From an uncultured Bacteroidota bacterium (lineage in GTDB: Bacteria > Bacteroidota > Bacteroidia > JABEUT01), in NCBI GenBank assembly GCA_903863935.1, contig CAIPDV010000060.1:1-52431 (forward strand): a DNA stretch of 52,431 nucleotides. The letters are read 5' to 3'. A program made the translations under genes and the position numbers. Below are positions 8,635 to 46,152 of the stretch, one piece after another. Numbering within the stretch: position 1 is the stretch's first letter; each line of letters starts with the position of its first letter. The notes beneath the pieces were generated by a model. The model did no database searches. It was not told the origin of the DNA and saw only the letters and a program-made list of their open reading frames with translations.

Positions 8635-11243
8635 GATTTTTCTTTGTTAACAATGTTGTTTTCATCCGATGGAATTGCATTCACTACAAAAACTTTAAAG
8701 GTGCTTCCTTCATTTTCGCGGCTGTAAAAGGAAATATGCCCGTTTAAAATATCAATATATTTTTTCACAATACTCAATCCAAGTCCGGTTCCTTCAATAT
8801 TCAGGGTGTTTTTAGCCCTGAAAAACCGTTCGAACAAGTTTGATTGTTCATTTTCAGGGATACCTATACCATGATCTTCAACCGTGAATTCAAGTCCTTC
8901 GGTACTTACAAAGGTAGTGTAATTGATGGATGAGTTTTCGGGAGAATATTTTATTGCGTTTGCCAATAAATTAAGCACCACATTTTTCAGCATCAAATGG
9001 TCCATAAACACCTGTGAATCTGAAGTATTATGAATGTATTTTATCTTCTGCCCGTTTTTGAGTTTCGATTGTATCTCGTCTATGATCTCATTCGAAAAAT
9101 CTTTCACGTCAAAATGAGTAGGGTGTGTAGTAGCCTTACCTTGTTCCAGCTGTTCGAGTGACAGAAAGCTGTTCAGGATGCTTACCATATTTTGAATGGA
9201 CGTTTTGATCCGTTTCAGGTGTTTACGGTTCTTTTCTTTTATAATAGCTGCATTTTCACCATCATGTTCTATATATTCTCCAATAAGTTCGGTGGAGGAG
9301 AGTATGGTGCTTAATGGGGTCCTGAATTCATGGGAAGCTAGGGTAACAAACCTTGACTTTAGTTCATTGATCAGTTTTTCCTTTTCAAGGGCCATCCTCA
9401 TATTTTCTTCCGCTACCTTCAGTTTTGTAATGTTTTGTTTTACAAGAAGTATTTCGTTCACCACGCCGCCTGTATTCTCAAGGGGGACACCATGCATTAC
9501 ATAATTTTGTCCGGAGAGTGTCACATCAAATGTAGCATTGTTCCCTTTAAAAATATCGAGCAGGTTACTTTTTATCTCATGTTTTATTTCAGCCGGATAC
9601 CTATTCAAATAAGGCCTGCCCAGTAGTTCGTCTGCATTCAATCCTTCGAGGGCTAATTCGCGTCCGTCTACAAAAATGTAGTTCAAATTGCGGTCGAGCA
9701 CAGTAATAGTTCCATCGGGAAAGTTGCGTGCAATGGTTTTATAAAATCGCTGGCTTTCCTCCAATTCGGCAACATAACGTGCCAGGTTTTTATTCAGTTC
9801 AATAATGGTATCCTCGGTTTTTTTCCGTTCGGTAATGTCTTCGGAAATTCCCAGCAGATATAGGGGCTTTCCTGTTGAATCGTATACCGGAATTTTTTTT
9901 GTGTGAAGCCAGCGGGTACCATTCCTTGTTTTAACGGGCTCCTCTGAAATATCAAGCCCGGCATGGCTGGTAAGCACCTTTTTGTCATTGAAAGTGAAAA
10001 AATCAGCCTGTTCTTTCGGGAAGAAATCATAATCGTTTTTACCCAGTAAGTCTTCCTGTAAATATCCCAATAGTTTTTCCCCGGCTTTATTAAAGCGCAA
10101 AAACCGAAGGTCGTTAGCATCTTTAATAAATATCATATTAGGTATATTTTCAAGTACTGAATCCAAAAACTGGTTTGTACGTCTTATTTCTTCTTCTGTA
10201 TCCTTTCGCTGGGTTATATCGCGTACCACACACTGAAAACTTACAATCCTTTTTCCTTTTCTTATCATAACCACGTTTTGTTCCACCCATTTGGTAGTGC
10301 CTTGTTTGGTTAAAATGGGAAACTCGTAACGGGTTTCGTAGATCTGGCTTTTAAACTGCTGCAAATAAAATTCCTTCACTTTTTCAATCCATTCCGGATG
10401 AACCAGGAAGGTGAAATGTTTTCCCACCAATTCATCAATGGCATATCCGGTTAATGATTCAAGCCTGGAGTTGATAAAAGTAAAACGGCCTTCAGGGTCA
10501 CTGGAGAAAATAACATCGCCCACTTCTTCAACCATCAGCCTCAGTTTTTCTTCATTTTCCCGTATTTTAATTTCAGCCACGCGGCGTTGCCGGATATCGG
10601 CATTTAAACTGATAAGTATGAAGAATATGAATAACAGTGCTCCGGCTGCCGTAAAATAAATAGAGTGGATCGTGTTTTTCTGCGACTCGTTGGCTGTATT
10701 CCTTCGTATAGTAAGCAGGCGGAACTCCTCATTGGCAATTTCGTTGGCCTTGGCGATAATATTATCGATGTAATTTTCGGATGGACCGGCCCTGAAAATT
10801 TTTGGAACTGCGGCAGCCATATCCAGGTTGTTGGAATCAACCCCCGGAAGATTTCGCTCCATATTCATAACCAGCGCACGCAAATCGATCATACGCTGCA
10901 ATTGTAAGGGGTTATCTTTAACCGAGTCAATCAGATTATCCACACTGGCATTCAGGGTAAGTGCATTTTGCCGTGCCGAAACTGCATAATAAGGCTCACG
11001 AGACATGATGAACTTGTCGGATGAGTTTTCGACAACAGTGGCTTGAAATTCGATTTGGTAAACACCTTCAATTATATGGTGGGTATGGCGCACAGAATAA
11101 CCCGTATTTTCGGTAGTGCTGAAATTTACAAATGCGTAATAAACCGAAGCGGCAACAGCTAAAATGGCGGCAATGAAAAGTGCAAGTACAATCCTTTCGA
11201 TTTTCACAACTACAATATTACGAAATAAAGCCGTAACAGCCAT
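8631..11243 (-). CDS. membrane histidine kinase with CHASE3-like sensor and three PAS domains
   Basis: An 870-residue sensor kinase. A first membrane helix lies near residues 15-37, followed by a ~150-residue extracytoplasmic helical region resembling CHASE3 (HTHHIIEGVYQIEFQATVVE...), and a second helix near 195-215. Three PAS domains follow, at about 230-350, 355-475 and 490-610 (GRFTFINSRLESLTGYA; SDPEGRF; ITERKKTED linkers). HisKA has the phospho-acceptor His638 in ASHEFRTPLS. The ATPase domain shows the N box (NLLANAIKYSPE), G1 (DHGIGIP) and G2 (GTGLGLSIVKKY). It phosphorylates the receiver of the overlapping regulator gene. The signal is unknown; the PAS domains may sense redox state or small ligands. 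Confidence 0.93.
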   Translation of the reverse strand: MAVTALFRNIVVVKIERIVLALFIAAILAVAASVYYAFVNFSTTENTGYSVRHTHHIIEGVYQIEFQATVVENSSDKFIMSREPYYAVSARQNALTLNASVDNLIDSVKDNPLQLQRMIDLRALVMNMERNLPGVDSNNLDMAAAVPKIFRAGPSENYIDNIIAKANEIANEEFRLLTIRRNTANESQKNTIHSIYFTAAGALLFIFFILISLNADIRQRRVAEIKIRENEEKLRLMVEEVGDVIFSSDPEGRFTFINSRLESLTGYAIDELVGKHFTFLVHPEWIEKVKEFYLQQFKSQIYETRYEFPILTKQGTTKWVEQNVVMIRKGKRIVSFQCVVRDITQRKDTEEEIRRTNQFLDSVLENIPNMIFIKDANDLRFLRFNKAGEKLLGYLQEDLLGKNDYDFFPKEQADFFTFNDKKVLTSHAGLDISEEPVKTRNGTRWLHTKKIPVYDSTGKPLYLLGISEDITERKKTEDTIIELNKNLARYVAELEESQRFYKTIARNFPDGTITVLDRNLNYIFVDGRELALEGLNADELLGRPYLNRYPAEIKHEIKSNLLDIFKGNNATFDVTLSGQNYVMHGVPLENTGGVVNEILLVKQNITKLKVAEENMRMALEKEKLINELKSRFVTLASHEFRTPLSTILSSTELIGEYIEHDGENAAIIKEKNRKHLKRIKTSIQNMVSILNSFLSLEQLEQGKATTHPTHFDVKDFSNEIIDEIQSKLKNGQKIKYIHNTSDSQVFMDHLMLKNVVLNLLANAIKYSPENSSINYTTFVSTEGLEFTVEDHGIGIPENEQSNLFERFFRAKNTLNIEGTGLGLSIVKKYIDILNGHISFYSRENEGSTFKVFVVNAIPSDENNIVNKEKS

Positions 11244-29108: not shown

Positions 29109-29192
29109 CCCCAAACCCCTAAAGGGGCTTCCAGGCACTATTGGTTGGCCACGCCTGTTATTGCAATTCAAAGCCCCTTTAGGGGTTTGGGG
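29109..29192. repeat. 22-bp perfect inverted repeat with CCCCTAAAGGGG arms
   Basis: Arms 29109-29130 and 29171-29192 are exact reverse complements, and each contains the internal palindrome CCCCTAAAGGGG. The loop is 40 bases. Located between divergent genes. A half copy is at 46079-46097, and the same vocabulary appears inside rdgB (31550-31573). Confidence 0.8.
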
Positions 29193-30569: not shown

Positions 30570-31262
30570 ATGGCAGTTTACAGGTTTAAGGTATACTTTG
30601 AAGATGATGAGAACATTATCCGTGAGATAGAGATCAAGTCGACACAAACATTTGAAGATTTTCATAAAACAATTCAAAGTTCAATCGGGTTTGATGGAGC
30701 ACATCCAACCTCCTTTTTTGTAGCCACCGAAACATGGCGCAGGGGCAAGGAGATCATATTGTTGCACAAAAGCCACAGTGCCGGAATTAAGGGTACATGG
30801 ATGCACGAAACCAAACTGGCAGCTTATATTGAAGATCCGCACCAGAAATTTATTTATGAGTTCGACCCTGACGGTGCTAACTGGATATTGCAGGTTGAAC
30901 TGATGAAAATTATTCCGGAAGCTGCTGTAACCTATCCACGTGTAAATAAAACCGTAGGTATTGCACCGGCTCAATATAAGGTAACTTCTGCTGCCGAAAT
31001 TCCGGTAGTTGAAGAAGAAGAGGATGAAATAACTCCAATTATTGATGATGCCCAGGATGCATACGTTCACCCCGAAACAGCCCATGAGTTTGATGTGCCG
31101 GATGAAGAAGAGCCAATGATACGCAATATGGTTAAGAAAGCCCTTCCGGTGGAAGCCGTAGAAGAGGAATCATTTGCCGAGGAAAATGAGGATGATGAAA
31201 TTGGCGGCGGTGGGGAAGAGCCCGAAGAAATTGATGCCGAAGACGGCGAAGAGCTTTCTTAA
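30570..31262 (+). CDS. plasmid pRiA4b ORF-3-like family protein with acidic tail
   Basis: A 230-residue soluble protein. Residues 1-115 match the pRiA4b ORF-3-like domain (PF07929 type): YRFKVYFEDDENIIREIEIK, TFEDFHKTIQSSIGFDGAHP, then FIYEFDPDGANWILQVEL. The second half is a strongly acidic, low-complexity tail (EEEEDEI, EEESFAEENEDDEIGGGGEE). The domain is widespread in Bacteroidota, but its role is unknown. It lies 100 bases upstream of rdgB with only a large AATTACG hairpin between them, and may be in the same operon. The acidic tail suggests binding to a basic protein or mimicry of nucleic acid; that is inference. Confidence 0.75.
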   Translation: MAVYRFKVYFEDDENIIREIEIKSTQTFEDFHKTIQSSIGFDGAHPTSFFVATETWRRGKEIILLHKSHSAGIKGTWMHETKLAAYIEDPHQKFIYEFDPDGANWILQVELMKIIPEAAVTYPRVNKTVGIAPAQYKVTSAAEIPVVEEEEDEITPIIDDAQDAYVHPETAHEFDVPDEEEPMIRNMVKKALPVEAVEEESFAEENEDDEIGGGGEEPEEIDAEDGEELS

Positions 31263-31264
31263 TC

Positions 31265-31361
31265 AATTACGAATTACGAATTAAAAATTACGAATCAAAT
31301 ACATTTAAAGCATGATGGTTCTTTGTTTTAATTCGTAATTCGTAATTTTTAATTCGTAATT
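31265..31361. repeat. AATTACG-type repeats forming a large inverted repeat
   Basis: Left block 31265-31296 and right block 31329-31361 are built from AATTACG units; 31273-31295 and 31338-31360 are exact reverse complements (23 bases). It fills the gap between the pRiA4b-like gene and rdgB. It could fold in the transcript and act as terminator, attenuator or mRNA stabiliser. Confidence 0.8.
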
Positions 31362-31362
31362 A

Positions 31363-31962
31363 ATGAAACTGCTCTTCGCTTCTCAGAACAAACATAAAAT
31401 TGAGGAAATAAGGCCATTGCTGCCACCTGCGGTTGAGTTGGTTTCATTAACCGATTTGGGCTTTTACGAAGAGATACCTGAAACCTCGCCCACCTTGCAG
31501 GGCAATGCATTACAAAAAGCACAATTTATTTTCGATAAGTTTCATTCCCTTCTCCCCTCAGAAGGGGTTGGGGGATGCTTTGCCGATGATACGGGGTTGG
31601 AAGTTTATGCTCTTGACGGGCGACCGGGTGTATATTCGGCACGCTATGCCGGAGAAGGCAAAAGTGCCGATGACAATATGGAGAAATTATTGGCTGAAAT
31701 GCAAGGCGTGGATAACCGCTCGGCAGAATTTAAAACCATTATTGCCTTAGTGGGGCTGGGTGAACCCATGTACTTTGAAGGTGCTGTGAAAGGCACCATC
31801 ACCAAGGAAAAACACGGTATGCATGGATTCGGTTACGACCCTGTTTTTATGCCCGAAGGTTTCAATATCACATTTGCCCAAATGAGTTTGGAAGAAAAAA
31901 ACAAACTAAGCCACAGGAGCAGAGCGGTGAAGAAGTTTGCGGAGCATTTACGCGGCATTTGA
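31363..31962 (+). CDS. rdgB: non-canonical purine NTP pyrophosphatase (RdgB/HAM1)
   Basis: A 199-residue enzyme that hydrolyses dITP/ITP and XTP to monophosphates, keeping damaged purines out of DNA. Family marks: FASQNKHKIEEI at the N-terminus, ETSPTLQGNALQKA, FADDTGLEVYALDGRPGVYS, FEGAVKGTI, HGFGYDPVF and LSHRSRAVKKF. Between IFDKF and CFADDTG there are about eleven extra residues (HSLLPSEGVGG, residues 61-71), where other members have only three or four; the DNA there reads like an intergenic CCCCT/AGGGG repeat. The extra residues lie on a loop before the active-site strand, so activity may be kept. The 5' flank is the AATTACG hairpin. Confidence 0.93.
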   Translation: MKLLFASQNKHKIEEIRPLLPPAVELVSLTDLGFYEEIPETSPTLQGNALQKAQFIFDKFHSLLPSEGVGGCFADDTGLEVYALDGRPGVYSARYAGEGKSADDNMEKLLAEMQGVDNRSAEFKTIIALVGLGEPMYFEGAVKGTITKEKHGMHGFGYDPVFMPEGFNITFAQMSLEEKNKLSHRSRAVKKFAEHLRGI

Positions 31963-46042: not shown

Positions 46043-46152
46043 ATTATTATGGGAAATAAAAGGTTATTTACTTGCTTACTCCAAACCCCTAAAGGGATTT
46101 CCTCACCAGGGTTCACTACGAATTATCAAAAAATAGACTGTGTTCATAATCA

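Follow-up and report, generated by a model that had tools for sequence, protein, structure and literature searches.

Can an intergenic palindromic repeat become coding sequence within a housekeeping enzyme of the Bacteroidota, or are the extra codons in one rdgB gene an ordinary feature of that gene? Protein-coding palindromes are best known from Rickettsia and the Rickettsiales. We analysed a window of 52,431 nucleotides from an uncultured Bacteroidota bacterium (assembly GCA_903863935.1, contig CAIPDV010000060.1), for which an initial annotation had proposed that repeat-like DNA lies in frame inside rdgB, that its codons are the vocabulary of the CCCCTAAAGGGG repeats (family A below), and that the case resembles the palindromic elements of Rickettsia proteins. 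The features that bear on these proposals are collected in Table 1.

Table 1. Location of rdgB, of the palindromes in the window and of in-frame family A copies elsewhere in the genome (C, contig; other positions are those of the window).
Feature	Location	Strand	Remarks
rdgB / HAM1 (dITP/XTP pyrophosphatase)	31363..31962	+	199 aa; PF01725, 4bnq
Imperfect palindrome ATTCCCTTCTCCCCTCAGAAGGGGTTGGGGGATG	31544..31577	+	In rdgB; translated (H)SLLPSEGVGG(C)
Second, unrelated palindrome, AATTACGAATTACGAATTAAAAATTACGAAT + inverted repeat	31259..31367		3' arm over rdgB start codon
Family A REPIN-like intergenic pair, CCCCAAACCCCTAAAGGGG ... CCCCTTTAGGGGTTTGGGG	29109..29192		Related in form to the rdgB insert, not its parent
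Degenerate single half-element of family A, AAACCCCTAAAGGGA	46083..46097	+	
Family A 60-bp palindrome in MtaB	C73:2637-2696		In frame
Family A 60-bp palindrome in NadE	C74:46741-46800		In frame
Diverged family A copy in CysS	C89:about 8667-8726		In frame
Family A 60-bp palindrome in GT28-like glycosyltransferase	C126:22890-22949		In frame
Family A 60-bp palindrome in oligopeptide ABC ATPase	C89:4225-4284		In frame

The rdgB product was assigned to Ham1p_like (Pfam PF01725, E 1.7e-61), with the required domain and the fold both present. The best structure by sequence was 4bnq (2.4e-34), and the alignment to it showed an 8-residue gap exactly at the extra codons. A whole-genome search found one copy of rdgB, with an intact ORF. 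Around the insert the DNA reads GAT AAG TTT, followed by the extra codons (CAT TCC CTT CTC CCC TCA GAA GGG GTT GGG GGA) and then TGC TTT GCC GAT GAT, which gives D K F H S L L P S E G V G G C F A D D in frame and the peptide HSLLPSEGVGGCFADDTGLEVYALDGR across the region. The interval between F60 and C72 is HSLLPSEGVGG here and three residues in close relatives (QVP, KTP, KMP). The net gain over the relatives is +24 nt, or 8 codons, a multiple of three, and the frame used contains no stop codon within the element. All residues invariant in the family alignment were kept, for example N9, K12, E15, D76 and S183-H184-R185. The extra in-frame codons proposed at 31543-31578 were therefore borne out by the sequence, by the alignment of relatives and by the gap to 4bnq.

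To place this gain among relatives, we aligned 58 RdgB proteins of the class (57 relatives and the protein itself; a strict motif filter removed 12 other loci). The distance from N48 to E80 was 25 residues in 54 of the 57 alignable relatives, 26 in one, and 33 in the present protein. Two distant genomes reached 34 and 32 residues, and the extra DNA there was ordinary. The short loop was found in every same-genus RdgB recovered, with the additional eight residues only in the present species. A long loop as an ordinary Bacteroidota trait is ruled out by these counts, and the possibility that most RdgB proteins of the phylum carry a loop of this length, against which the initial annotation had asked to be judged, was not what the alignment returned. 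As far as the aligned sequences indicate, the loop between helix and strand appears to tolerate growth, yet the short form is the rule. The element would have entered rdgB in the lineage of the present species, after its split from the nearest sequenced relatives. Because the long loops of the two other genomes consist of ordinary DNA, lengthening of the loop here does not require a mobile element, and the extra codons could be the outcome of slippage or a small local duplication, G/C-rich filler that resembles a REP by chance. We regard this explanation as unlikely for reasons that lie in the DNA of the insert itself, described below.

The structural setting of the insert was predicted with AlphaFold2 from a 50-sequence alignment. 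The model had a mean pLDDT of 94, falling to 71 for the block 61-70, and residues 61-68 formed the coil that joins helix 45-60 to strand 69-81. The fold was unchanged, with a TM score of 0.89 to 4bnq and 0.88 to E. coli RdgB (2q16). The expectation that the insert occupies a surface loop agrees with this predicted coil, which links a helix to the active-site strand. Placed in such a loop, the insert should leave RdgB able to fold, and it survived selection; we infer that the enzyme is active. The insert ends a few residues ahead of the active-site pair D75-D76, and this proximity would suit a reading in which it was kept since it alters RdgB (its activity, oligomerisation or substrate access); altered activity is one possibility considered by Di Nocera et al. 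(2013, PMC3733652) for replication and repair genes tagged by REPs. We consider such a role very improbable, as the insert is conserved in one species only and insertions in unrelated proteins (MtaB, NadE, CysS, GldB and the ABC ATPase) argue for tolerance over function.

The insert forms a two-tier hairpin with outer arms TCCCTT/GGGGGA, inner arms CCCCT/AGGGG and a CAGA loop. Its RNA fold of -17.4 kcal/mol had a z of only -1.1, which is unexceptional for the G/C-rich composition and which, taken by itself, fits chance loop expansion. A search of the genome (3.76 Mb) with the 23-mer CTCCCCTCAGAAGGGGTTGGGGG found one further copy with 2 mismatches on the minus strand at C45:31525-31547. This copy sits in the intergenic spacer between two tRNA genes, the sole copy outside protein genes, and folds into the same two-tier hairpin (z -2.1). 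When the match was extended over the 34 nt of the rdgB element, 30 of 32 aligned bases were identical, with one 2-nt gap, and the expected number of such second copies was 9.5e-5 under a first-order Markov model of the genome. Among 294 other class genomes, 0 contained the 23-mer, and the 84,980 species scanned yielded one match, in Halomonas, which is close to the chance expectation of about 0.5 (21-mer, two twofold positions, 257 Gb). Both the near-identical copy in the tRNA spacer and the lack of such a sequence in these other genomes speak against loop expansion by slippage or duplication. The tRNA-spacer copy also upholds the claim that a palindromic repeat which occurs between genes is now coding in a housekeeping enzyme.

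Copies of the rdgB element are few. In the present genome and nearby genomes the contig-45 copy was the only other one within 3 mismatches over 23 nt, and a looser 16-mer search gave matches no more numerous than its reversed control. A search allowing 6 edits in an 832 kb sample, about a fifth of the genome, gave one weak candidate. With two copies known, the rdgB-type element is barely a family.

Family A, by comparison, is abundant in the same genome, which has 44 exact CCCCTNNAGGGG cores where the reversed control gave 0. Many of these cores pair head-to-head in a 60-bp near-perfect palindrome, CCCCAAACCCCTAAAGGGGCTTTGAATAgtgcTATTCAAAGCCCCTTTAGGGGTTTGGGG, with a fold z of -10.5. At least one copy was found in 8 of 10 sister genomes, and five of them held more than a dozen; outside the genus there was a handful of matches, mostly with one mismatch, which makes the family nearly genus-confined. 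The intergenic repeats cited by the initial annotation were present in the window, one as an inverted pair and the other as a single degenerate half (Table 1).

Comparison of the rdgB element with family A showed a common layout, CCCCT-loop-AGGGG followed by TTTGGGG in family A and by TTGGGGG in rdgB. The two differ in the loop (CAGA against TT/AA), in the tail (TTGGGGGATG against TTTGGGG) and in spacing. The family A core and its TTTGGGG tail are absent from the rdgB insert, which has CCCCTCAGAAGGGGTTGGGGG instead, and an exact family A copy is ruled out by loop, spacing and tail. Within the genome, the insert is closest to the contig-45 element and not to any of the 44 family A cores. From these motifs the rdgB element appears to be a cousin in form of family A and not a copy, and its link to the family of the intergenic pair in the window is only a resemblance. 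The claim that the extra codons are the vocabulary of the CCCCTAAAGGGG repeats stands for the general plan and fails for direct copying, so that the earlier interpretation as a whole is partly supported. A derivation from family A itself, as a degenerate single or collapsed copy, would be compatible with entry of a REP-like palindrome and would account for the common plan in a genome where family A is often in frame within genes. We regard it as possible and rather doubtful, given the different loop, spacing and tail and the nearer contig-45 copy; a separate subfamily is as likely, because GGGGTTGGGGG-tailed sister forms, hairpins similar to the rdgB element, occur in other Bacteroidota.

We examined how family A itself behaves inside genes. 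The 60-bp unit has a single open frame, which reads PQTPKGALNSATQSPFRGLG (20 codons), the two other frames having stops, and the in-gene copies use this open frame. In addition to the copies in Table 1, a diverged copy was found in a PMT-like membrane protein, and copies near the N-termini of GldB, a PA0069-type radical SAM protein and a PAP2 protein, which may precede the true start codon. Three in-gene copies (NadE, CysS and MtaB) were compared with relatives. NadE reads AEYVNEITT[20]QYPDGIIP here and has the empty site AEYVNELHPGLIP in sister genomes, and CysS reads NWNGNSQ[20]QDVEKALSSF here against the empty site NWNGTTVNLEVEKTLSSF in relatives. At the MtaB position the closest relative, G005 (85% identical), has another palindromic-looking insert of unlike sequence, RGPTGNYSKSALGGLG, which ends AGGAGGTTTGGGG, and this suggests a site where insertions are recurrently tolerated; the remaining relatives have no MtaB insert of comparable size. 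In the predicted structure the MtaB insert is coil, with pLDDT <50 at 230-248. In G005, a methyltransferase-like ORF (named by sequence motifs only) likewise contains a 66-bp variant in frame. Because MtaB, NadE and CysS of the present genome contain bona fide palindromes in frame, the comparison with Rickettsia made at the outset was apt. BshC contains one family A half, which was not counted as an insertion, since 4wbd aligns there without a gap. Separately, a short tandem repeat at the BshC domain boundary encodes the run VDPTPLVKQGVNPTPLVKQGVNPTPLVDPRV, with about 36 residues missing in 4wbd.

Another palindrome family with in-frame copies is CGTCATTGCGAGG (translated SLRGSAKQS...), which looks like the CGTC-tagged REPs of Di Nocera et al. 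It was found in frame in the NadE linker (residues about 275-325) and at C80:123688-123714 in a chorismate-synthase-like ORF, named by sequence motifs only. The 832 kb sample, of which the window is a part, contained further interspersed palindrome families (GTTATGAGTTATAA, GTTCATAGTTCATA and GTCATCCTGA...TCAGAATGAC).

In a draft of 126 contigs an assembly or binning artefact has to be considered, as repeats break assemblies and several copies of family A are located at the end of a contig (C21:7, C65:3). Such an origin of the rdgB insert is hardly credible, with the insert 31.5 kb inside its contig, the frame kept, and in-frame palindromes present likewise in the independent relative G005.

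To look for a source of mobility, we searched for RAYT-like Y1 transposase genes (PF01797, Y1_Tnp) and found 7 in the genome. Family A or the rdgB element flanked 0 of the 7, and most of these genes have their own distinct flanking REPs, for example GTCCCTAAGGGAC and CCACGACCTAAAGGTCGTGG. No target-site duplication was identified at the rdgB insert. The gain in rdgB (24 nt) is smaller than the repeat (34 nt), and therefore about 9-10 nt of target were replaced or shared. The element would have moved as a mobile unit. Upstream of the insert, the unrelated AATTACGAATT palindrome lies between the preceding gene and rdgB, with arms at 31259-31299 and 31327-31367 that are 83% complementary and an RNA fold of -33.3 kcal/mol (z -6.8); it could occlude rdgB translation initiation.

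Taken with the copy in the tRNA spacer, the loop lengths and the in-frame palindromes of other proteins, the rdgB insert is probably a short REP-like palindrome that entered the gene and survives as a passively tolerated, translated selfish repeat, as RPEs do. In form the element would be related, at low copy number, to the genus-specific CCCCTAAAGGGG REPIN family; freedom from stops, the kept frame and the loop position would explain its retention, and it is presumably neutral otherwise. For the genus as a whole, the chances seem to us about even that an untagged REPIN-like system repeatedly enters conserved enzymes in frame and yields recurrent new protein loops outside the Rickettsiales; this reading is founded on the 60-bp unit being a multiple of three with one open frame and on the two palindromes at one MtaB position. 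If it is true, before-and-after pairs are available in close relatives, and the MtaB, NadE, CysS and RdgB inserts with the empty sites of relatives would be clean pairs for studying neutrality, movement and the seeding of loops in essential enzymes.

Several known systems resemble these elements in part. REPINs and BIMEs are paired REPs mobilised by RAYT Y1 transposases. Family A is similar in being mostly an inverted REP pair with near-fixed spacing that forms one long hairpin, in a genome with RAYT-like genes; it differs, as does the rdgB element, in flanking none of the 7. REPs within coding regions have been described from Rickettsia (RPE), Opitutus, Thauera, Xanthomonas and others (PMC3733652; PMC10969869). 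As summarised in these two accounts, the Rickettsia RPEs of Ogata et al. (2000, 2002) occur between genes and in frame in unrelated housekeeping genes, where the protein fold is predicted to accommodate them. The present elements have in common with RPEs that they are short palindromes, intergenic and in frame in unrelated housekeeping genes. The RPE-1 type, however, is about 150 bp long and belongs to obligate intracellular Alphaproteobacteria, whereas the rdgB element is 34 nt and family A 60 bp, in Bacteroidota. RPE-4 and RPE-6 are CGTC-tagged and family A is untagged, with no shared sequence seen, the RPEs being compared through their published descriptions. Coxiella QMITE1/2 (PMC5896051) are likewise small and palindromic and in some cases lengthen genes by in-frame codons, but they are at least 150 bp long, have terminal inverted and direct repeats, and lie mostly at gene ends or in hypothetical ORFs (PMC5896051).

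A further published parallel is that of the intragenic GTAG/CGTC REPs, which as singles and head-to-head dimers inside ORFs encode 20-30 aa, also in tRNA synthetases (PMC3733652); CGTC REPs have been reported from Bacteroidetes (Di Nocera et al. 2013, PMC3733652). The CGTCATTGCGAGG... family of the present genome likewise has copies inside ORFs. GTAG/CGTC REPs are tagged at the end, and family A and the rdgB element have TTTGGGG or TTGGGGG tails instead. Direct reading found no CGTC end, as defined for RPE-4/RPE-6 (PMC3733652), in the rdgB insert or family A, and no GTAG end, the ends being ATTCCC and GGGGGATG in rdgB and CCCCAAA/TTTGGGG in family A. The rdgB element would work like an RPE or an intragenic REP; lacking both tags, it belongs to neither the GTAG nor the CGTC superfamily. 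For in-frame palindromes in Bacteroidetes, the literature search returned only the CGTC/GTAG survey (PMC3733652); it returned no description of an untagged Bacteroidota family with an in-frame insertion, which is weak evidence of novelty as the search covered few subscription papers. Translated REP elements are already described, and what the present case would add is a lineage-specific, untagged family in the Bacteroidota.
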